Below, piece by piece: positions 21,994-34,961 of a stretch of 64,000 bases of DNA. The notes under the pieces are model-generated. The model did no database searches. It worked only from the letters and a program-made list of their open reading frames with translations, and was not told the DNA's origin. Where the stretch lies: contig DYNP01000004.1 in NCBI GenBank assembly GCA_020721005.1, forward strand, positions 188,652 through 252,651, in the 5' to 3' direction. The position numbers were made by a program, and so were the translations under genes. Positions within the stretch are counted from its first letter, which is position 1. Each line of letters starts with the position of its first letter. Source of the DNA: Thiomargarita sp. (GTDB lineage: Bacteria; Pseudomonadota; Gammaproteobacteria; Beggiatoales; Beggiatoaceae).

Positions 21994-22500
21994 TTAACTT
22001 CTGGCCAACAATTCCTCATATTTCTTTTCCAATTCCTTCTTATGTTGCAATTCCTCATGTGCCAAATAGTAAAACAGATCTCGAATGGGACCATCCGGTG
22101 CCTCTCGAGCCAAAGTGGAATACTGTTCCATCGCCGCCTGCTCTCGTCCCATCGCATAATGTAAAATAGCCTTGTCATCGGCAAAATCGCCCAACTGTGG
22201 CGCCTGCAAATAACCTGAAAATCGATGATTACTGGGAGGCATTTCGACCAAATCCCCATGATGTTCCAAAGTGTGAGGATGTTTACTCAAACTTTGAAAC
22301 AAGTCAAAATGGATTTTTTCCTCAGCCGCCAATTCAATGACCAAATTACGTAATTCAGGCGCAATCTTATCTCGCAAAGACAGGTAAAAAATGTGGGCTG
22401 AATATTCAAAGGAGCTGGCCGTTTCCAAAATCTCACCCATGCTACTTTTATTCTTCAGCGCTTGGTAACCTTCACCTTCTAATATTGGTTGTGTGCTCAT
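21994..22500 (-). CDS. Ferritin-like/rubrerythrin-type diiron domain protein
   Basis: The 168-residue product is nearly all helical. The motifs SFEYSAHIFY, AAEEKIHFDLF (E-x-x-H), GREQAAMEQYSTLA and AHEELQHKKEL (E-x-x-H) fit the four-helix ferritin-like fold with two metal-binding Glu/His pairs, as in the rubrerythrin erythrin domain. There is no rubredoxin-like Cys4 domain. Members reduce peroxide or handle iron. It follows the NRPS gene on the same strand with a 103-base gap, so co-transcription is possible but unproven. Start ATG at 22500 follows a TAGGAAG ribosome site. Confidence 0.85.
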   Translation of the reverse strand: MSTQPILEGEGYQALKNKSSMGEILETASSFEYSAHIFYLSLRDKIAPELRNLVIELAAEEKIHFDLFQSLSKHPHTLEHHGDLVEMPPSNHRFSGYLQAPQLGDFADDKAILHYAMGREQAAMEQYSTLAREAPDGPIRDLFYYLAHEELQHKKELEKKYEELLARS

Positions 22501-22603: not shown

Positions 22604-25600
22604 TCAATTTGCAATATTATCTAAACTTTTTTGTAATGCTCTGGCGAGACTTTCCACCTGAGGTCCAATAAACAAATTGTCATGATAGGCATGAATTTGT
22701 TGCATCTCCACCCCCCCCAAAGCAATTTTTTCCAAAGCCGATGAATAGCGCCAATACCACTCCTTAGACAGAAATAATGTGATTTTACCCGCATAAGCCT
22801 GGGGCTCGTAACATTCCAAGGCTTGATAAAATGCCCGGATAAACAATGTATCGTGTAATTTACGAGGTAAAATACCCGTTGATTGATAAAAATGCTGTTG
22901 CCATTGTCCCCAAGTCAAACGTCCAATTAACTTAAAATGACGCAACTTTCCCATAAGTTTGTGTCCCAGGTAACCGGGACCAAATTCTAACAAATTATGC
23001 CAATGGCGAGCATAATGATTTTGAGGTTGCCAAACTACATCAATAAAAGCCAACATCCCTACCGTTTGCCCACTGGCCAATAATTGTTGTGCCATTTCAA
23101 AAGCAATAATCGCATCTCCACAATAGCCTCCCAAATGGTAGGGACCTTTAGGTTGTACAGTTTGAACTTCTTGCAAATATTGTCGAGCAATATCAGATAC
23201 TTGTAAATTAATTTCTATATTTTCAGGTTGTTGTAACCCGAAAATATTTAACCCATACACGGGTTGATCAGGACTTAAGTAAGGGGAAATGGCTCTGGCA
23301 TATCGGGTTGAGCCCACAAAGAAAAATGGCAAACGTTGGCCAACGGGTTGAATCACTTCTAGAGTTCGAAGGTGGGTCTGGGTTTCCTGTCGTACTCTTT
23401 TTGAAAGATCCCGAATCGTCGGAAACTGAAAAACAGTGATCAGGGGTAGCGTTTTGCCAAAGTTTTTTTCAATCTGGTCTAATAAACTCATTCCCAATAG
23501 AGAATTACCTCCTAAAGTAAAAAAATTGTCATCCACCCCAAAATTATCCAAATTCAAAATTTTCTGCCAAATAACTAATAATTTTGCCTCCAAGTCATCA
23601 CCGGGCAACGCTCGTGATATTTGCACTTTCACAGTCGGTTCCGGCAAAGATTGATAATCTATTTTGCCGTTGGGAGATAGGGGCAATTCTGACAGCTTAA
23701 CCCATCGATTGGGTAACATATAGGCTGGCAATTTTTGTTTTAAAAACTCTTTTAATTCCGTGACTAATTCTAAATTTAATTCCCGTTCATCGGGTACAGA
23801 AAGTGCAGTGGAAGAAACTTTGGGTACCACATAAGCCACCAATTGTTTGTCCAAGGTTTTTCCCTTGGCCGCTACGGTGACCGCTTGTATCTTTGGATGT
23901 TGGGCTAATAAATTTTCAATTTCACCCAGTTCAACTCGGAAACCACGAATTTTAACTTGATTATCCAATCGGCCTTGAAATTCAAGGTGTCCATCGGGTA
24001 GATAACGAGCCAAATCTCCGCTTTTATACAAACGGGTTTCTAAATTTATTTTTAAACCTTCTTTCCTGGACAATTGAGAGAATATCTCTTGTTTTACTAA
24101 ATTGGCTAACCCGGGCAATTCTGCCACAGTTACAAATTTTTCAGCAGTTAATTCCGGTTGTTGGTAATATCCTTTTGCCAAACCATCTCCCCCAATATAC
24201 ACTTCTCCAGTCACCCCCATTGGGACCAATTGTCCTTGGATATCCAATATAAAAATTTGAGTATTGGCAATGGGTTGTCCTATGGGCAGCGATCGATCTG
24301 TGGGTTGTAATCCCAATACTGGATAACAGCAAGTGAAAGTAGTATTCTCAGTGGGACCATATCCATTGATCAACTGTCCTTTTTTCAGGGCCAACACGGC
24401 TTTATTCACGTGGGATACTGACAATACATCTCCCCCGGCTAGCAGTTGATGCAGTCCCTGTAAGGCTGTGGGACGCTCTTCCACCAAACGATGAAATAGG
24501 CCGGCAGTCAACCATAAGGTGGTTATGGCAAATTGTTGTAATACCGCTTCCAATTCTCTTAAAGATAAAGTTTGTGGAGGGGCAATGACCAAACATCCCC
24601 CATTTAATAGGGCGCCCCAAATTTCAAAGGTGGCAGCATCAAAAGACAGGGGCGCCAGTTGTAAATGCACTTCTTGGGGACCTAATTTTACATAATTGAT
24701 ATTTTTCACCAATCGTACAATGCCTCGGTGCACGATACTAACTGCCTTGGGTTGACCTGTGGAACCAGAAGTGTACATCAGATAAGCCAAATGGTCCAGT
24801 CCTACTGGCTTTGTTTGGTAAATGGCTTGGGAGAGCAGGGGTTTAGACCAGTCTTGGTCCAGGTAAATAATAGGTATATTTTCAAGAGTCTCTTCCAATG
24901 ATTTGATCATGGTTTGCAGATGTTGTTGGGTCAGCAATATTTTTATATTAGCGGTTTTGATCATCCATTGTAAGCGAATGATGGGATAACTGGGATCCAA
25001 AGGCACATAGGCACCTCCAATTTTCAGAATAGCCAATAAGCCTATGATCATTTCCACACTGCGCTCTACACAAATGCCGACTGGGGTTTCCAATGCTATT
25101 TCTTTGATTTGTAAATGAGCAGCCAAATGGTCAGCGGATGTGTTTAGCCACTGATAGTTGAAATGGTGTTTGCCAAATCGCAAAGCAATGGCTTGGGGAG
25201 TTTGTTGAGCTTGTTCCTCAAATATGGCATGAACTGTTTTTAAAGGATAATTGGTAATTGTTTGATTCCAAGAGATAATTTGTGAAATTTCTGGTTCTGT
25301 CAGTAAAGTAAAATTGCCTATTTTTTGATCTGGAGCGGCAAGTGCTATTTCCAGTAAGTTTTGGTAATGAAGAGCCCAACGTTGTACAGTGCTTTCTTTA
25401 AATAGGTCAGTGCGATATTCCCAACGCCCTCTGATTGCTTGGGAATGTTCTTCTAATTCTAAAATGAGGTCAAATTTGGCAGTGCCGGTGTGAATATCAA
25501 AATGATCCCATGTCCAATCAATTGCTTCGGTAACTGAAGGATCAAAGGTGAACATGATTTGAAACAAGGGATTGCCTATAATTTTTCGTTGAGGAGATAG

Positions 25601-28489
25601 AGCCGCCACCAGTTGGCTAAAGGGCAAATCTTGATGAGTGTAGGCTTCTAATACAGTTTGTTTAACACGCGCCAACAATTCCTGAAAACTGGGGTTGCCA
25701 GTGAGATTGATGCGCAGAGCCAGTGGGTTTAGCAGGAGACCACAGAGTGCGGCCAATTCAGATCGTTGGCGATTTTCTTTGACTGTGCCTAAGGTGATGT
25801 CGGTTTGACTGGTGTAACGGTAAAGTAATAAATTGAATACGGCTAATAGGGTCATATAGGGGGTGACCCCGGCTTGGCGACTGAAGATTTTAAGGTGCTT
25901 GGTGAGTTTTGAGGAGAATTGGAAACGCCATTGTGCTCCTTGGTGACTGGGTTTTGAGGGGTAAGGATAATCGGTAGGCAGTTGTAAGTTTTCGACTTTA
26001 GACAGTTTTTGTTGCCAGTAGGCCCATTGGATGGGGAGATGAGACAAGGTTTGTTGTTGGTGTTGCCAGACGGCAAAGTCAGTGTATTGTAGGGGAAGGG
26101 TAGGCAGGGAACAGTGCTTTCCTTGAGAATAATTTTTGTATAAGAAGAATAGTTCGGGTAATAAAATTTGGTACAGGGAAATGCCATCAAAAATGATATG
26201 GTGTAGAGTGAGATAGAGATGAAAATCGTTTTCAGTCAAACGTACGAGCAGGGCTCTTATTGGAATATCAGTTGTTAAATCAAAGGGTTGTTTGGCAAAG
26301 GCGGTGGCTAAATTACGAGTTAGAGTGAGTCGAGTGGATTCTGGAATGGATCGGTGGTCTTGACAGTGGAGGTGAAAGGGGGTGGTTTTGGCGATGATTT
26401 GCAGGGGTTGACCGGCTTTTTTGAGAAAATGGGCTCTGAGTTGAGGGTGTCTTGCCACTAGGGTTTGGAAACTTTGAATGAGGGCTTCTTGGTTGATGGG
26501 ACCAGTAAGATATAGGGTGACGGGTTCATTGTAAACTGGTTGAGAATCAGCCAATTGAGTTTCGAGCCAGAGTTGTTGTTGGGCAAAACTGAGGGGGAAT
26601 TCAGTTTGTTCCGGAGAACAGGGGGTTATGGGTATAATGGTGTTTACGACGCCTTTAAGTAGCTGATCTTCAATGAATTTTGCCAATTGGGAAATCGTAG
26701 GGGCTGCAAATAGGGTGGATAAGGACAGGTCGAGGTGTAAGTGGCTATAGATTTGGGTGAGCAGTTGGGTTGCGAGTAGAGAATGACCTCCAAGGTCGAA
26801 AAAGTTGTCTTGAATGCCGACTGTGGGCAACTTGAGAATGGATTTAAACCAGGTTTGGAGTTGAGTTTCCAGTGGGGTTTTGGGGGTTTCTGGTTCTATT
26901 TCTGTAGATTGCCATTGGGGAATGGGTAAGGCAGCACGGTCAATTTTGCCGTTGGGGGTGATGGGGAATTGGGTTAGGGGTATAAAAGTGGCTGGGATGA
27001 GGTAAGGGGGCAATTGGGAAGTTAAAAATTGGTGTATTTGTTCAAGTAAAGCGGGTTGGGTGAGTTGGTTGTCGGGGGAGATGGTCAGATAGGCGACCAG
27101 GCGCACGTCATTATTGCCCAGAGTGTGGGGAACAATCAGGGCTTGTTGAATTTGGGGTATTTTTTGTAGGGTGGCAGCAATTTCTCCAGGCTCAATCCGA
27201 AATCCACGTATTTTGATCTGGTGGTCTCGACGGCCTATGAATTCCAGTGCACCGTCGGGTCGATAACGGACAAAGTCGCCAGTTTTGTAGAGTTTTGAGG
27301 AGGTTAGGTCTGTGCCCACTAGGTGGGATGGGGGAGTGATGAAGCGTTCTGCAGTCAGTTCGGGACGTTTAAAATAGTCGCGAGCCAACCCATCTCCTCC
27401 AATATAGAGTTCTCCAATTTCACCATGCGATACAGGATTAAGTTGTTCGTCCAGCACGTAGACTTGGGTGTTGCTAATGGGATAGCCAATGGGAACGGTT
27501 TCACCAATTTGCTCAATGGAGTGCATGGGATAACAGCAGGTGAAGGTGGTGTTCTCAGTGGGACCATATCCATTGATGAGTCGGCATTGCGGGATTTGAG
27601 TCAGTACTTTTTTGACATGAGGGACTGAGAGGGCTTCCCCTCCAGCCAACAGTTGTTGTAGGGAACGCAGTCCTTCTAGGTTGTCTTCTACCATTTGGTG
27701 AAAAAGTCCGGCAGTAAGCCATAAGGTGGTGATTTGGTAGTTTTTAAGGAGAGTGCCCAGTTCAAATAGCGAAAGGGAGGAAGGAGGAGCAAGAACGAGT
27801 CGTCCCCCATTGAGTAATGGACCCCAAATTTCTAGGGTGGAGGCGTCAAAGGCTAGGGGGGCAAGTTGTAGAAAGGTTTGGGTTGGGGAGAAGTCGGCAT
27901 AATTGGTGTTTTTGACCAGTCGAACGATGCCACGGTGGATGATGCTGACTCCTTTGGGTTGGCCGGTTGAGCCTGAGGTGTACATGACATAGGCTAGATT
28001 TTCAGTTTGAGTTGAACAGGGGGGGTTAATTTTGGGATATTGGGAATAGTCATCTTCTAGGTAGAGCAGGGTGGGAATTGAGGCGAGTTCAGGGGGGGCA
28101 GGTTGTTTAAATAGGGTGGATTGGGTGAGTAGGATAGAGACTTGGGCATCGTTTAGGAGCCAAGCCAGGCGGGCTGGGGGATGAGTGGGGTCTAGGGGCA
28201 GGTAAGCGCTTCCTGCCTTGAGAATGGCGAGCAGTCCAATGATCATGTCCAGTGATCGTTCAACACAGATGCCGATCAGGGTTTCGGGTCCCACACCAAG
28301 TTCTAAAAGGTGATGTGCCAATTGATTGGCCCTCTCATTGAGTTGTTGGTAGGAGAGTGTGGCCAATGGGTGAGAATTGGACAGTTGGGCTAAGGTAACT
28401 GCCGGGGCTAGGGGGGTTTGTGTGGCTTGGGCTTCAAACAGTTGTTGAACGCAGGTTTCTCTAGGATAAGAGGAGGCCGGGTGTGACAT
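22604..28489 (-). CDS. Two-module nonribosomal peptide synthetase, A-T-C-A-T-TE
   Basis: The 1,961-residue protein reads: adenylation A1 (about 15-520), carrier T1 (DLGGHSLL, Ser570), condensation C (about 620-1060; HHIIFDG at 763-769, intact HHxxxDG), A2 (about 1080-1610), T2 (TLGGNSLL, Ser1663) and thioesterase TE (about 1695-1955). Both A domains have LMYTSGSTGQPK/VMYTSGSTGQPK, GYGPTE and YKTGD/YKSGD cores. By my alignment to GrsA positions the specificity codes read D-A-L-W-L-G-G-T-F for A1 and D-A-F-W-L-G-G-T-F for A2, close to codes known for valine-like residues; this is inference. The TE nucleophile motif is GGYCGDA, with Cys1790 where serine is usual. A dipeptide-type product is expected. 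The phosphopantetheinyl transferase at 34,179 could activate it. No epimerase, tailoring or export gene is adjacent. Confidence 0.95.
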   Translation of the reverse strand: MSHPASSYPRETCVQQLFEAQATQTPLAPAVTLAQLSNSHPLATLSYQQLNERANQLAHHLLELGVGPETLIGICVERSLDMIIGLLAILKAGSAYLPLDPTHPPARLAWLLNDAQVSILLTQSTLFKQPAPPELASIPTLLYLEDDYSQYPKINPPCSTQTENLAYVMYTSGSTGQPKGVSIIHRGIVRLVKNTNYADFSPTQTFLQLAPLAFDASTLEIWGPLLNGGRLVLAPPSSLSLFELGTLLKNYQITTLWLTAGLFHQMVEDNLEGLRSLQQLLAGGEALSVPHVKKVLTQIPQCRLINGYGPTENTTFTCCYPMHSIEQIGETVPIGYPISNTQVYVLDEQLNPVSHGEIGELYIGGDGLARDYFKRPELTAERFITPPSHLVGTDLTSSKLYKTGDFVRYRPDGALEFIGRRDHQIKIRGFRIEPGEIAATLQKIPQIQQALIVPHTLGNNDVRLVAYLTISPDNQLTQPALLEQIHQFLTSQLPPYLIPATFIPLTQFPITPNGKIDRAALPIPQWQSTEIEPETPKTPLETQLQTWFKSILKLPTVGIQDNFFDLGGHSLLATQLLTQIYSHLHLDLSLSTLFAAPTISQLAKFIEDQLLKGVVNTIIPITPCSPEQTEFPLSFAQQQLWLETQLADSQPVYNEPVTLYLTGPINQEALIQSFQTLVARHPQLRAHFLKKAGQPLQIIAKTTPFHLHCQDHRSIPESTRLTLTRNLATAFAKQPFDLTTDIPIRALLVRLTENDFHLYLTLHHIIFDGISLYQILLPELFFLYKNYSQGKHCSLPTLPLQYTDFAVWQHQQQTLSHLPIQWAYWQQKLSKVENLQLPTDYPYPSKPSHQGAQWRFQFSSKLTKHLKIFSRQAGVTPYMTLLAVFNLLLYRYTSQTDITLGTVKENRQRSELAALCGLLLNPLALRINLTGNPSFQELLARVKQTVLEAYTHQDLPFSQLVAALSPQRKIIGNPLFQIMFTFDPSVTEAIDWTWDHFDIHTGTAKFDLILELEEHSQAIRGRWEYRTDLFKESTVQRWALHYQNLLEIALAAPDQKIGNFTLLTEPEISQIISWNQTITNYPLKTVHAIFEEQAQQTPQAIALRFGKHHFNYQWLNTSADHLAAHLQIKEIALETPVGICVERSVEMIIGLLAILKIGGAYVPLDPSYPIIRLQWMIKTANIKILLTQQHLQTMIKSLEETLENIPIIYLDQDWSKPLLSQAIYQTKPVGLDHLAYLMYTSGSTGQPKAVSIVHRGIVRLVKNINYVKLGPQEVHLQLAPLSFDAATFEIWGALLNGGCLVIAPPQTLSLRELEAVLQQFAITTLWLTAGLFHRLVEERPTALQGLHQLLAGGDVLSVSHVNKAVLALKKGQLINGYGPTENTTFTCCYPVLGLQPTDRSLPIGQPIANTQIFILDIQGQLVPMGVTGEVYIGGDGLAKGYYQQPELTAEKFVTVAELPGLANLVKQEIFSQLSRKEGLKINLETRLYKSGDLARYLPDGHLEFQGRLDNQVKIRGFRVELGEIENLLAQHPKIQAVTVAAKGKTLDKQLVAYVVPKVSSTALSVPDERELNLELVTELKEFLKQKLPAYMLPNRWVKLSELPLSPNGKIDYQSLPEPTVKVQISRALPGDDLEAKLLVIWQKILNLDNFGVDDNFFTLGGNSLLGMSLLDQIEKNFGKTLPLITVFQFPTIRDLSKRVRQETQTHLRTLEVIQPVGQRLPFFFVGSTRYARAISPYLSPDQPVYGLNIFGLQQPENIEINLQVSDIARQYLQEVQTVQPKGPYHLGGYCGDAIIAFEMAQQLLASGQTVGMLAFIDVVWQPQNHYARHWHNLLEFGPGYLGHKLMGKLRHFKLIGRLTWGQWQQHFYQSTGILPRKLHDTLFIRAFYQALECYEPQAYAGKITLFLSKEWYWRYSSALEKIALGGVEMQQIHAYHDNLFIGPQVESLARALQKSLDNIAN

Positions 28490-28915: not shown

Positions 28916-29416
28916 ATGAAAAAGTATGGATTGGTTTTATTTTCTTTGATGATGGTGTTTATACTACAGGCAACTTTTGCAGCCAATCCCACTCATCTAA
29001 AAACTTTGAAAGAGACTAAAAAGTGTGTGCGTTGTAATTTGAGTGGGGCAAGATTGTCTGGGGCGCGGTTAATGCGGGCTCAACTCAGCGGAGCAAATTT
29101 GTCGGGGGCAAAATTACGGGCGACCAATTTACGAGGTGCCAATCTTTCTGGAGCTAATTTGGGCAGTGCGGATTTGAGAAGAGCGAATTTGCGGGGGGCT
29201 TCCTTAAATGGAGCGCGTTTGAATGGCGCGGATTTGGGTGGAGCTAATTTACGGGGGGCTGATTTGCGGAATGCTAAAATGCAGGGCACTAACCTAAAAG
29301 GGGCTAATCTCAAGGGAGCAAAAACGGAGGGAGCTACCGGGGCTAATTTTTCTGGAGCCATACTCTATTTAGAGGGGATTGACTTATTTTGGGAAGTGAA
29401 TGATAATAATTCTTAA
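28916..29416 (+). CDS. Exported pentapeptide-repeat protein
   Basis: The 166-residue product has a signal peptide (KKYGLVLFSLMMVFILQATFAANP) and then about 20 tandem pentapeptides of the A(D/N)LxG type (LSGANLSGAKLRATNL...) from residue about 40 to 150, which fold into a right-handed quadrilateral beta-helix. A CVRC pair (37-40) precedes the repeats. Pentapeptide proteins vary in role; the signal peptide argues against a gyrase-protecting (Qnr-like) function and for a periplasmic or surface one. A GAGGTAGGA ribosome site precedes the ATG. Confidence 0.9.
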   Translation: MKKYGLVLFSLMMVFILQATFAANPTHLKTLKETKKCVRCNLSGARLSGARLMRAQLSGANLSGAKLRATNLRGANLSGANLGSADLRRANLRGASLNGARLNGADLGGANLRGADLRNAKMQGTNLKGANLKGAKTEGATGANFSGAILYLEGIDLFWEVNDNNS

Positions 29417-29508: not shown

Positions 29509-29847
29509 ATGGTGATTGTTGTCGGTGCGGATCGACTCGGTAATATCGAAAATTTGCTTAGAGAGCGTGGATTTTCAGACTTTAAGCATATTACCGGACG
29601 GAATCCTAAAGCACAAAAAAACATCCCTACCAGCACCTCAGGTGCAGAACTGATGATTTTGTTTACTGATTTTGTGGGACACAATGTTATGCGTAATTTC
29701 AGGAAGCAAGCCAAAGAGCAAGCAATTCCTTTCATTGCTTGTAAGCGCAGTGTTTGTGAATTGGCGACTTGCTTAGACAAATGTGGATTTGTCCCAACCA
29801 AGGCGTGTACTCATTGTCATTCATGTCAAACAAAGCACATTAACTAA
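29509..29847 (+). CDS. DUF2325 family protein
   Basis: The 112-residue product has VVGADRLGNIENLLRERGF near its start, HITGRNPK, and a C-terminal set of cysteines (CKRSVCELATCLDKCG, then CTHCHSC). The G-A-D-x-L-G-N-I start, ITGRNP and ACKRS motif are typical of DUF2325, a small cytoplasmic family of unknown role. The cysteine-rich tail (CTHCHSC) could bind metal. An AAGGAG ribosome site lies 7 bases before the ATG. Its stop overlaps the stop of the convergent histidine kinase gene by three bases. Confidence 0.82.
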   Translation: MVIVVGADRLGNIENLLRERGFSDFKHITGRNPKAQKNIPTSTSGAELMILFTDFVGHNVMRNFRKQAKEQAIPFIACKRSVCELATCLDKCGFVPTKACTHCHSCQTKHIN

Positions 29848-31433
29848 TTTTTTGTTGCATAAAATTCGGCCAACTTACAAATGGCTTCCAATTCGATTTC
29901 TCGAGCCAGTTGCTGGATTTTTTCAGCAAAAGGACGCAATTCTTCTTCTTGTGACAAGGTATCTGCAAATTCCAAGATGCCATTAACAAAACCTGTTTTG
30001 GCCAGGTCCAACAATAGGTTAGCTTGTTGAGGAGAAGGACCACACATCTCGGTATCTGAGGACCTCTTATGCTCCCTAAAGTAAGCAGCTACCGGCCAAC
30101 CTTCTGGGGCAGATTTCTCTGCCCCCATTCTCCCGATAAAATCCAAAATGACTGAAAAAGTGGTGCCCTTACCCACACCGCTGTTGATTGCCACTTTTCC
30201 GCCCATCATATCGACCAATTTATGAACAATGGTTAAACCCATTCCCACTTCATTAAAATTGCTCAACTCCGGCATCCCTCTCTTAAACGGCAATAGAATC
30301 TTCTCCAATTTTTGTGCCCCAATGCCAATCCCGGTATCTTCAATCTGAAAACAAATTTTCTCCCCCTGTTCAAAATGTAACACTTGCACCCGAATCAAAA
30401 CTTGCCCTTTTTCTGTAAACTTAATGGCATTACTCAATAAATTCACCAAGACCTGTCGCAAACGAGTCTCATCGGTCCGAATCACCTGAAATTTTTTCTC
30501 CAATAACAATTGATAACCCAATTCGATATCCTTTTGATCTGCCTGATATTGAAATAACCCCATCAACTGTTTTAAAAAACGTTCCAAATGAAAATCCGTA
30601 AAACACAACTGAGTTTTACCCGCCTCCAATTCTGACAAAGTTAAAATATCATTGACCAAAGTTAACAAACATTCCCCACCACGATGAATAATATCAATTC
30701 CCTCCTGTTGTTCAACAGTTAACCCCCGATCCTGCTTAAAAATCTGAGTGTATCCCAAAATTGCATTTAATGGAGTTCTCAATTCATGACTGACACTGGC
30801 CAAAAAAGTACTTTTCACCCGATTGGCCACCTCAGCATTCTCCTTAGCTTCATACAAAGCTTTATTGACCTTCTCCAACTCCACACTTCGCAAAGCCAAC
30901 TGTTTTTCCAACTGTTTCTGCTCTGTTACATCCAACAACGCAGAACGACAAGTTATCTTATTCTCCTCAATCACTTTCATACTTTTCAAATAAGCATCAA
31001 ACAGTTCCCCGTTAGCCTTTCTGATTTTTAATTCGCACGTATGATAACCCACCAAATGAAACACCTCATTAAGATGACGATGAAAAGTATGATGGGATTC
31101 TCTACACAAATAAGAAACAAATGGCTTATTTTGTAAATATCCCCGCTCTATACCAAGTTGTTGCGCCCCAGTCAAATTCAACTCCAAAATCAACCCATTG
31201 ATATCAAAAGTAAAATAACCCATGGGAGCAAAATCATACAACTCAGAATATTTATCTCTTGATTTCGCCAATTCATGTTGAGTTATCTGCAACTCCTCAT
31301 TTTGCAATTCCAACTCAATCTGATGAATATGTAAATCTTGAAGCAATGCTTGCACTTCCTCTTGCACAAAGTCATTCTGCTCTAAAATAGCCTGCTCTAA
31401 CTCCAATAATTGGGAATTCTTTTTCTCAGACAT
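29844..31433 (-). CDS. PAS sensor histidine kinase
   Basis: From the ATG at 31433 (AAGGA ribosome site 10 bases upstream; the GTG at 31442 lies too close to that site) the product has 529 residues. Order: an N-terminal coiled coil rich in Gln/Glu, a PAS domain (YDFAPMGYFTFDINGLILELN...), a second coiled coil, a dimerisation/phosphoacceptor domain with H-box SVSHELRTPLNAILGY, a HATPase domain (NLLSNAIKF, IEDTGIGIG, GMGLTIV, GKGTTFSV), and a helical tail of about 70 residues that I do not recognise. There is no transmembrane segment, so it is cytoplasmic. It lies 77 bases after the CheB-CheR hybrid gene and probably acts with it. No receiver or response-regulator gene is adjacent. Confidence 0.93.
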   Translation of the reverse strand: MSEKKNSQLLELEQAILEQNDFVQEEVQALLQDLHIHQIELELQNEELQITQHELAKSRDKYSELYDFAPMGYFTFDINGLILELNLTGAQQLGIERGYLQNKPFVSYLCRESHHTFHRHLNEVFHLVGYHTCELKIRKANGELFDAYLKSMKVIEENKITCRSALLDVTEQKQLEKQLALRSVELEKVNKALYEAKENAEVANRVKSTFLASVSHELRTPLNAILGYTQIFKQDRGLTVEQQEGIDIIHRGGECLLTLVNDILTLSELEAGKTQLCFTDFHLERFLKQLMGLFQYQADQKDIELGYQLLLEKKFQVIRTDETRLRQVLVNLLSNAIKFTEKGQVLIRVQVLHFEQGEKICFQIEDTGIGIGAQKLEKILLPFKRGMPELSNFNEVGMGLTIVHKLVDMMGGKVAINSGVGKGTTFSVILDFIGRMGAEKSAPEGWPVAAYFREHKRSSDTEMCGPSPQQANLLLDLAKTGFVNGILEFADTLSQEEELRPFAEKIQQLAREIELEAICKLAEFYATKN

Positions 31434-31510
31434 TGATGCCACATCCTTTACTCATGCCATCCGTTTGAAACAATTACAAAACCGTTCTCAAGAGATAATC
31501 TTTTTCCAAA

Positions 31511-34099
31511 TTAGACTCTTACAACCATAGCCTGTTGATGCTGCTGCTCTTCTCGGCGCCGGGTAATATCCACCATAGTAATCACAACCCCCTCAATCAA
31601 ATGATAAGTGGTCAAATAAGGGGAAATACGTAACAAAAACCACTTATCCTGTTGATTCTCAACCTCCACCTCTTTGGCTTGCCCAGATTGCAATACCCAC
31701 TTAATATCATCAATAAATTGGGGATATTTTAAACGATGAGCCAGATGTTGCAACGGTCGCCCCAAATCCGACTCGATCAAATTGATTTCCTGTGCGATAT
31801 CTTTAGTATAACGTTTAACACACAACTGCTTATCCAAAAACAAAGTCCCAATATTGATGCTGAACAATAAATTGTTGATATCATCATTCAATTCAGTCAA
31901 CTCTTGAATTTTATATTGATATTCCGAATTCACAGTGACCAATTCCTCATTCACCGCCTGCAATTCCTCATTGGTACTTTGCAACTCCTCATTTGCAGCC
32001 AACAACTCCTCATTGGTAGCCTGCAATTCTTCATTAGAAGTCTCTAACTCCTCAATGGTTGCCTGCAATTCTTCATTAGAAGTCTCTAACTCCTCAATGG
32101 TTGCCTGCAAAGTCTCCCGAGTATATTCCAATTCCCGCTCCAGATCAATGATCCGTTGATTAAAATCTGTAGAAATATCAGAAACTTCCTCCTTTTCTAC
32201 AGAATGAGCATGCAATTGTTCAAAAATGATCAACAACAACTTGGGAGATTCTGGAGAATCTAAACTTAAGGGGCGCACATGAATATTAACATCTTTATAA
32301 CTGTCATTCACCTTAAACTTCAAATTATACAACAACTTCTTACCATGTGCAATGGCATTGTGAGCCGCTGTGGTCAAAATGACCGAAATATCCTGTCGTA
32401 AAATCTTAGTCAAATTGATACTCATTTGACCTTGAGGAAATTTCAGATAAGTTTCCAAATTGCCATTGATATGCAAAATATCCAAATTTTCGTTAGTAAC
32501 AATGCAAGGGGGAATAAATTCTACGCTCAAAGCCTCATAAATCAAATCTACAAACTGTTTTTGAGAAGGCATTTTACCCCACTTTTCCTGACGCGGCAAA
32601 TTGTAAATAAATGGCAACACTTCAGGCACCACCTCGTTTTGAGCCTGATGTGAGGAAGCCAGATAATTGCCCTTGTACTGGTAAATTTTCTTACTGGCAT
32701 CTACTGTTGAAAATAAGTGAACATTGTCGCTGATAGATTCACTGCTGCCCAGCAATAAAAACCCCTGCGGTTTTAGAGAAAAGTGGAATAGACTCAAAAT
32801 CTTATCTTGTAAAACCGGTTGTAAATAAATGAATAAATTGCGACAACTGACCAAATCAATTTTGACAAAAGGAGGGTCTTTGATTAAATTATGGGGAGCA
32901 AAGATGACCATTTGTCTTAATTGGCGAATAATTTGGTATTTGTTATCTTCCTGTTTGACGAAAAAATTACGCAATCTGGGCAGGGCTACATCCGCAGCAA
33001 TGCTTTCTGGATACACCCCCAAACTGGCATATTCAATGGCATGTTTATCAATATCAGTGGCAAAAATCTTAACCGTATGTTGCAACTCAATTTTTTTGAT
33101 ATATTCAGCCAGTAAAATGGCAATTGAATAGGCTTCTTCCCCAGTTGAACAACCTGCAATCCAGACTCTTACTGGAGTATAAATGGATTTTTTTTCAAAT
33201 AACTTGGGAACTACTTCTTCTGCCAAAGTTTCAAAAGATTCTGGGTCCCGGAAAAATTTAGTGACACCGATCAATAATTCCTTATATAATACCTTGATTT
33301 CTAAAGGAAATTTTTGTAAGTAATGGAGATATTTTTCAATAGTGTCGATTTGATTGATATTCATGCGTCTTTCTATGCGACGAATCACCGTGTTTTCTTT
33401 ATAATTGGTAAAATCGACATTCAACTGCTCTCTGATTAAAGATAACACTTTGAATAAAGTATTCTCATGTTTTTCAATAGCGGCTTTTTCTGGGGTAAAC
33501 ACCTTTGCCAAAGTGGGATGTTGAGTGAATTTCAGCAGAGCCTCGGGCATGGTTTCCGGGGGGATAATGTAATCGCATAAACCGGTGGAAATAGCACTTT
33601 TGGGCATACCATCAAATTTAGCTGAATCAGGGTCTTGCACCATGATCGTACCTTCACTTTCCTTGATCGCTCGAATACCTCGAGTGCCATCGCTGCCGGT
33701 CCCAGACAGGATAATGGCAATGGCTTTATCACCTTGATCTTGAGCCAAAGAGAGAAAGAAAATATCAATGGGTAAACTCAGTCCCCGATGCGCATCTTTT
33801 TCAGTCAAATAAAGTTTGCCGTGAAAAATGGTAATATTTTTGCGGCTGGGAATTAAGTAGATGTGATTGGGATACACTTGCATACCGTCTTCTATTTGAA
33901 TTACCGGCATTTCAGTATGTTTAGAAAGAATTTCTACCATCATACTTTTGTAATCCGGAGACAGGTGTTGTACCACGATGAATGCCATTCCATTGCCGGG
34001 AGGCATGTTGTCAAAGAATTTTTCTAAGGCTTCCAATCCGCCGGCAGAAGCTCCAATGCCAACGACGTAAAAATTGTTATAATGGTTTTTTTGAGCCAT
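31511..34099 (-). CDS. CheB-CheR-PAS hybrid (methylesterase/methyltransferase fusion)
   Basis: From ATG 34099 the product has 862 residues; the frame extends upstream to a TTG at 34153 without a good ribosome site. Order: CheB methylesterase domain with Ser18 in [12 protein letters not shown], the His in VVQHLSPDY and the Asp in [10 protein letters not shown]; CheR methyltransferase ([23 protein letters not shown]); a central region (about 470-630); a long coiled coil of repeated [12 protein letters not shown] heptads (about 640-735); and a C-terminal PAS domain (about 740-845). No receiver domain is present. Such hybrids pair with PAS-type histidine kinases, as here. Direct control of chemoreceptors has not been shown for most of them. 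Confidence 0.93.
32019..32102 (-). repeat. Perfect 2 x 42-bp tandem duplication in the coiled-coil coding region
   Basis: Two identical 42-base copies (32019-32060 and 32061-32102) lie in frame in the CheB-CheR hybrid and encode the same 14 residues (two heptads, [14 protein letters not shown]). Complete identity points to a recent duplication. Confidence 0.93.
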
Positions 34100-34178
34100 A
34101 GTTTTGATCTCTGGGTTCAATGAAATGTGCGAGTATGAAGTTTGTGAGTACAAATAGTCAAATTAAGGAGTGTAAAAT

Positions 34179-34961
34179 ATGGGTAACCTATTGGATTTAC
34201 CCCCGTTTGAAATTCATCTGTGGTATGTATTTCCTGAACAAATTCAAGAGGTTAGTTTGTTAAACACTTATCTGAGTTTACTGAACTCAGAGGAACGCCA
34301 AAAACGGATTCGGTTTCGTTTTGCCCAGCATCAACATCAGTACTTGGTCACCAGAGCACTGATTCGGAGCGTGTTGTCTTATTATTATCCTAAAAAACCT
34401 GAGGATTGGCAATTCACCCAGAATAGTTATGGCAAACCTGAAATTGTACGGGATACTGACATGCCGGATTTACAATTTAATCTATCCCATACAGAAGGAG
34501 TTATTCTTTGTGGAATTGGGCTGGGACGGGCAATTGGAGTGGATGTGGAATGTGAAACTCGTAACAGGGATTTGGAAGGGATTGCGCGTCGATTTTTTTC
34601 CAGTCAGGAAAGTGAAAGTTTGCTCAAAATTGTTGATCCAAAGTTATTAAGAAAACGTTTTTTGGAATATTGGGTGTTAAAAGAAGCTTATGTTAAAGCT
34701 CGAGGGTTGGGCCTGTCTTTGTCACTGAAAGAATTTTCTTTTGAAATAGAAGGTGAGGGCTCATCGCTACGGTTAAAATTTCAGGGGGAACAGGCTCAAC
34801 AGTGGCAATTTTGGTTATTTGAACCAAGACCGAATCATTATGGGGCAGTGTTCCTGTGGGCTGGTGATTTACCTCTTTATAGAATTGTGATGCGACAAGT
34901 CATTCCCCTGATTGGGGAACAGGAAGTGATGTGGAATTGTTTGGGTCAGTCTCACTTTTAG
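34179..34961 (+). CDS. Sfp-type 4'-phosphopantetheinyl transferase
   Basis: The 260-residue product has the Sfp signature pieces in order: NSYGKPEI, LQFNLSHTEG, IGVDVECE (metal-binding Asp/Glu) and FLEYWVLKEAYVKARGLGL (W-x-x-K-E-A). It transfers phosphopantetheine from CoA to carrier-protein serines; the obvious local target is the NRPS, with Ser570 and Ser1663. The 260-residue length fits Sfp rather than AcpS (about 125). A GGAG ribosome site lies 8 bases before the ATG. It is divergent from the CheB-CheR hybrid gene. Its 3' end overlaps a transposase remnant on the other strand by three bases. Confidence 0.94.
   Translation: MGNLLDLPPFEIHLWYVFPEQIQEVSLLNTYLSLLNSEERQKRIRFRFAQHQHQYLVTRALIRSVLSYYYPKKPEDWQFTQNSYGKPEIVRDTDMPDLQFNLSHTEGVILCGIGLGRAIGVDVECETRNRDLEGIARRFFSSQESESLLKIVDPKLLRKRFLEYWVLKEAYVKARGLGLSLSLKEFSFEIEGEGSSLRLKFQGEQAQQWQFWLFEPRPNHYGAVFLWAGDLPLYRIVMRQVIPLIGEQEVMWNCLGQSHF

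Follow-up and report, generated by a model that had tools for sequence, protein, structure and literature searches.

The aureusimine synthetase AusA is an NRPS with the domain order A-T-C-A-T-R in which valine is taken first. The first module of the linear gramicidin synthetase LgrA also loads valine, and this enzyme has an N-terminal formylation domain. Oligomerization driven by the terminal thioesterase (TE) occurs in EntF and in valinomycin synthetase. For malacidin MlcM, the adenylation (A) domain pocket code DAFWLGGTFK is tabulated as valine in the available part of the source (PMC9113097). Several TEs carry Cys as nucleophile; the available sections of two papers describe ObiF1 and SulM as Cys-TEs in which the triad Asp is displaced and the last residue carries a beta-nucleophile, and AB3403 as a Cys-TE with the triad Asp at its usual place (PMC11298585, PMC6668435). 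The last module of the syringomycin enzyme SyrE (C-T-TE, without an A domain) depends on a separate A-T protein for its loading (PMC8949500). The Beggiatoaceae comprise 25 genera in GTDB, according to the portion of the source at hand (PMC11172852), and the secondary metabolism of the group was termed not thoroughly investigated in the available text of a paper on one member (PMC5728499).

The NRPS described here lies in a 64,000-nucleotide stretch of Thiomargarita sp. DNA (assembly GCA_020721005.1, contig DYNP01000004.1), referred to below as the window. The gene is a complete dimodular NRPS of a known enzyme type. It probably acts as a self-contained enzyme that joins valine-type residues and releases them through Cys1790, a cysteine at the nucleophile position of its TE. 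Our literature search found no description of the enzyme among the matches listed, and for the order A-T-C-A-T-TE its matches include a trimodular line, as described in the available part of the text.

Organization of the Gene and Its Surroundings

The NRPS is encoded by one open frame on the minus strand (Table 1), and a plus-strand translation of the same interval contains stops throughout. Pfam recognizes AMP-binding and PP-binding domains, two of each, together with a single Condensation domain and a single Thioesterase domain, the last with a best stretch at residues 1729-1916 (48.8 bits; cut-off 26.4). The core motifs include YTSGSTG at 170 and 1239, LGGHSLL at 566, LGGNSLL at 1659 and HHIIFDG at 763, so that A, T and C domains stand in modules with intact motifs, as in modular type I NRPSs. 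An in-frame stop sits three codons 5' of the ATG and therefore rules out a starter C domain or a frame concealed upstream; with an A domain at its N-terminus, the enzyme thus has no C domain to accept an incoming chain. An earlier sequence-only reading of this DNA had proposed a 1,961-residue frame of the order A-T-C-A-T-TE, starting with an A domain and acting as a self-contained dipeptide synthetase. Frame, order and self-containment are all borne out, and the strand, which that reading did not state, can be added.

Table 1. Features of the NRPS gene and its neighbors (positions are those of the window).
Feature	Position	Strand	Basis
Dimodular NRPS gene, 1,961 aa, A-T-C-A-T-TE	22604..28489	-	Pfam
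A1 adenylation domain, residues 15-525, code DALWLGGTFK	26915..28447	-	Pfam, alignment
T1 carrier domain, residues 535-605, LGGHS	26675..26887	-	Pfam, motif
Condensation domain, residues 628-1071, HHIIFDG	25277..26608	-	Pfam, motif
A2 adenylation domain, residues 1090-1620, code DAFWLGGTFK; missing in G019 ortholog	23630..25222	-	
T2 carrier domain, residues 1636-1698, LGGNS	23396..23584	-	Pfam, motif
Thioesterase domain, residues 1711-1961; aligned triad Cys1790, Asp1817, His1936	22607..23359	-	
Cys1790 codon, TE nucleophile position in GGYCGDA	23120..23122	-	alignment
4'-Phosphopantetheinyl transferase (PPTase), HetI-like	34179..34961	+	126.9 bits, below NCBIfam cut-off 370
Rubrerythrin-like protein, downstream of NRPS	21994-22500	-	
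Pentapeptide-repeat protein, upstream of NRPS	28916-29416	+	
PAS histidine kinase, upstream of NRPS	29844-31442	-	
CheB-CheR-PAS protein, upstream of NRPS	31511-34153	-	

The PPTase that a type I NRPS needs to prime its T domains is present, and its start lies 5.7 kb from that of the NRPS. It is the single PF01648 match found in the genome, whose completeness is stated as 99.68%, although the same search found matches in 10 of 14 control genomes and a divergent AcpS could be missed. The window PPTase presumably primes T1 and T2. Since it is the only PPTase detected in the genome, its proximity says little, and it was not retained as a cluster gene; if nothing was missed, it also serves the other assembly lines and may serve fatty acid synthesis. 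Thus the Sfp-type transferase noticed 6 kb away in the sequence-only reading is there, but no meaning in its nearness is supported. The same reading saw no local regulator genes, which holds only in a loose sense: the upstream genes include those for a PAS histidine kinase and for a CheB-CheR-PAS protein, and no tie between either of them and the NRPS was found.

The rubrerythrin-like neighbor was considered as a tailoring enzyme and rejected. Rubrerythrin occurs in 21 of the 42 genomes of our family sample (25 genera); it lies on another contig than the NRPS relative in genome G019 and more than 1 Mb from that in G039, but an ortholog in G040 sits about 1.6 kb from a split NRPS, where the two may be linked. 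The likelier reading is that it is a bystander, as it looks to be. When the window ORFs were compared with 12 of 20 family loci, the shared neighbors were this rubrerythrin (locus L124, in G040) and a PPTase-like gene (L109, in G019). A histidine kinase at L110, from a common family, matches a window ORF at 24% over 230 residues, and a 252-residue ORF at L116 matches two window ORFs, both far from the NRPS.

Adenylation Domains and an Ortholog That Lacks A2

The pocket codes of A1 and A2 were read by alignment at ten positions, which we take to be those of the GrsA numbering. They differ at one of the ten, and the A2 code is identical to the published MlcM valine code. No labeled match to the A1 code was found in the literature, where only DAFWLGGTFK turned up, in a single paper, and this one-residue departure of A1 counts against the reading preferred here. 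A tree built from 31 A domains gathers those with this code in one 11-row set (support 97/90), which includes two rows that have related codes (L035, L061). Window A1 has the G019 A domain as its sister (100/99) inside the same-code clade, while the branching of A2 within it was not resolved. A quick tree had placed A2 with A1 and the G019 domain (SH-aLRT 86), a grouping lost once the A domains of the window's own genome were added in a later version. The idea that A2 is a recent duplicate of A1 is unsupported, given this branching and 52% identity (51-52% between the two domains). A different terminal A domain, coded DAMHVGGVSK or DAMHVGGVTK, precedes the Cys-TE in L110, L113, L118, L123, L124 and L125; these domains are 32-34% identical to those of the window and are a possible A subfamily.

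The closest full-length relative found is a 1,455-residue protein (L109, 8098-12465, minus strand) on a 188-kb contig of G019, which belongs to another genus of the family. G019 also gave the best TE match outside the window's genome among the 42 family genomes. The two proteins align over their whole length except A2 (785 of 1,414 aligned residues identical, 56%), and in the relative a short linker replaces that domain, leaving the order A-T-C-T-TE. Its sole A domain has the code of window A2, yet its sequence is nearest window A1. Both of its carriers retain LGGHS, and a comparison of carriers gave no signal that its T2 has turned T1-like. The PPTase-like gene at this locus (L109:7360-8034) lies 63 bp downstream on the same strand and is perhaps in one operon with the NRPS; it is named by its similarity to the window PPTase alone (28% over 155 residues). 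The window NRPS also has a relative in G040 (L124:6721-12389), broken by either a frameshift or a sequencing error into two frames, A-T-C at the start and then C-A-T-TE. In G039, of the same genus, the relative is a single frame of 1,956 residues.

On the simplest reading of the G019 sequence, its single A domain would load both carriers. The two positions would therefore take the same residue, which would carry over to the window enzyme, so that this natural deletion of A2 favors a Val-Val-type homodipeptide. The A-less module of G019 could instead be loaded in trans, by analogy with SyrE, or could be non-functional. The window NRPS and its A2-less ortholog form a natural pair on the question of whether one A domain loads two carriers in cis. 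The earlier proposal of two similar hydrophobic, valine-like A domains agrees with the published valine code at A2 and with the G019 protein, which adds evidence that the residues are the same. A dipeptide that is valine-like at both positions is likely on the same two grounds, and its release may be in linear form, as a diketopiperazine or as an oligomer.

A rival to the homodipeptide is that A1 and A2 take different branched residues, such as Val with Ile, Leu or 2-aminobutyrate. The one-position difference in code would allow this, as would the low identity between the two domains and the position of A2 in the tree. However, the G019 domain combines the code of A2 with an A1-like sequence, which suggests that the two codes are interchangeable, and we consider a mixed dipeptide unlikely.

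The Thioesterase and Its Distribution

The nucleophile elbow of the TE reads GGYCGDA and has Cys1790 where Ser is usual; the alignment places Asp1817 and His1936 at the other triad positions. A terminal TE had been recognized from the sequence beforehand, but the cysteine had been missed. Among 44 TE-bearing frames, those from family genomes have Cys in 20/20 and an Asp two residues further on (CxD) in 16/20; those from a genome-contig collection have Cys in 8/24 and CxD in 0/24. Over all clade TEs read, window included, the counts are 26/26 for Cys and 22/26 for CxD, an agreement that is partly selection because the family rows were gathered by likeness to the window TE. These 26 are the 20 family frames, the window, the other four family loci with top scores and a lower-scoring one; the TE of G040:C89 (146 bits, LCFGS) was left out. 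In the clade members without CxD (L123, L124, L125 and L128), Gln takes the place of the triad Asp. In the TE of L123, Tyr moreover aligns with the His, so that this TE may be inactive.

We asked whether an acidic residue after the next strand (Glu1910) points to an ObiF-like triad. It is present in 19/19 rows of TE alignment A1, but also in 12/18 outside TEs (alignment A2) and in 7/11 of those with Ser; being so common, it is not evidence of such a triad. An AlphaFold2 model built on alignment A2 has a TE fold (mean pLDDT 80.4, pTM 0.78), with most of the lid (TE residues 114-118 and 121-146) below pLDDT 50, so that substrate size cannot be read from it. The best Foldseek matches of this model are thioesterases of NRPS, PKS and FAS systems, including AB3403, EntF, NocB and Vlm2; Pks13 is also among them.

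The presence of EntF and of the valinomycin synthetase TE (Vlm2) on this list bears on a second rival, in which the TE works iteratively, parking a first dipeptide on Cys1790 and coupling or cyclizing two or more dipeptides to a cyclic tetra- or oligopeptide. Held as a thioester on the Cys, the first chain could, by inference, await a second. Against this, the same list contains FAS and Pks13 TEs, no feature of the sequence predicts oligomerization, and the lid is modeled with low confidence. We give this reading about as little credence as the mixed dipeptide.

The TE profile A1 was run on the order (whose 42 genomes are those of the family), on a class sample (369) and on a phylum sample (398), the last two overlapping and containing a few family members. 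It matched 25 loci in 17 of the 42 order genomes at 228-399 bits; the next family locus, in G035, scored 181 bits and is also CxD. At E 1e-25, 5/369 genomes of the class sample passed, two of which are family members (G000, G020), and at least two further family members there (G014, G022) gave no match. In the phylum sample 14/398 passed, one being the window's genome. The best score outside the family was 134.9 bits over both samples; 12 of 18 out-of-family matches were read as loci, with GxSxG in 10/12 and MCLGG in 2/12, and three genomes behind named loci reached at most 78 bits. The view of other phyla is that of the 24 TE frames from the genome-contig collection, which was scanned with whole-protein patterns rather than for the TE clade and perhaps did not include the window's own genome.

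In the genomes sampled, this TE variant appears from sequence to be confined to its own family. The clade sits behind varied modules in 17 of 42 family genomes, so that one characterized Cys-TE would inform many lines. A broader proposal, which we doubt more than we believe, is that the Cys-TE with a CxD elbow is peculiar to the family (very probably the Beggiatoaceae) and shared by many otherwise unrelated assembly lines, that Asp in place of the elbow Gly beside the Cys would lead to a release chemistry unlike ordinary hydrolysis, and that the G019 lineage may represent a minimal homodipeptide synthetase with one A and two T domains.

Proposed Function

In the preferred scheme, the genome's only detected PPTase would prime both carriers; A1 would adenylate a valine-type residue and pass it to T1, and A2 would do likewise for T2. 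Condensation by the C domain would then give an L,L dipeptidyl-S-T2, and the TE would accept the dipeptide on Cys1790 as a thioester before releasing it. A Val-Val-type homodipeptide, either linear or cyclized to the diketopiperazine, is the likeliest product as read from the sequence. We infer the identity of the substrate, the role of the Cys as working nucleophile, the lack of partner genes and the mode of release, as well as the L,L stereochemistry, for which the ground is that there is no E domain. Products of relatives were sought and none found. The NRPS lends itself to expression as a whole protein, being small, complete and isolated.

The window's genome (4.05 Mb, 133 contigs) contains three other NRPS or PKS-NRPS regions; of its 14 C-domain matches, one is in the window and 13 are on contigs C79 and C88. 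The region at C79 148001-169026 (L164:1-20000, L165:1-3027) is a PKS-NRPS hybrid that includes KR, DH and methyltransferase domains and two radical-SAM proteins, one of which has a below-cut-off B12-binding match. A TAG lies inside its first C-domain match. It is highly improbable that the window enzyme is a relic of, or helper to, this line, serving it with its TE or its dipeptide: the hybrid has two last A domains coded DAFWLGGTF (nine positions read) and a final A-MT-T module without a TE, and the three PF00975 matches of the genome all lie elsewhere, but the window enzyme lacks an N-terminal C domain that could take a chain, its gene is on another contig, the motifs checked are intact, and a role of its TE in trans has no positive evidence.

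Comparison with Known Synthetases

AusA resembles the window enzyme as a dimodular NRPS joining two hydrophobic residues, and its family (NF047350) is the second NCBIfam match of the protein, at 1225.9 bits against a cut-off of 2500. AusA ends in a reductase, whereas the window protein ends in a TE; therefore neither an aldehyde nor a pyrazinone route is available in cis. The best solved-structure match for the whole protein is LgrA (850.6 bits over 2 stretches, of which the best spans residues 9-1112), which differs in its pocket sequence as aligned and in its formylation domain. The G019 ortholog, like SyrE, ends in a C-T-TE module without an A domain, but carries an A domain with the right code in cis, and the window enzyme retains its own A2.

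Among the Cys-TEs, AB3403, ObiF1 and SulM share with the window TE the replacement of Ser by Cys, as far as the available sections describe them. AB3403 is also alike in having its triad Asp at the ordinary position, as with Asp1817, although its elbow aligns as GWCFGG against GYCGDA in the window. In ObiF1 and SulM, by the same partial sources, the Asp lies one strand later (strand numbering differs between the papers), and these TEs close beta-lactone or beta-lactam rings by way of a beta-nucleophile that the last residue carries. The A2 code is of the valine type, and since valine has no beta-nucleophile, the window TE is unlikely to form either ring.
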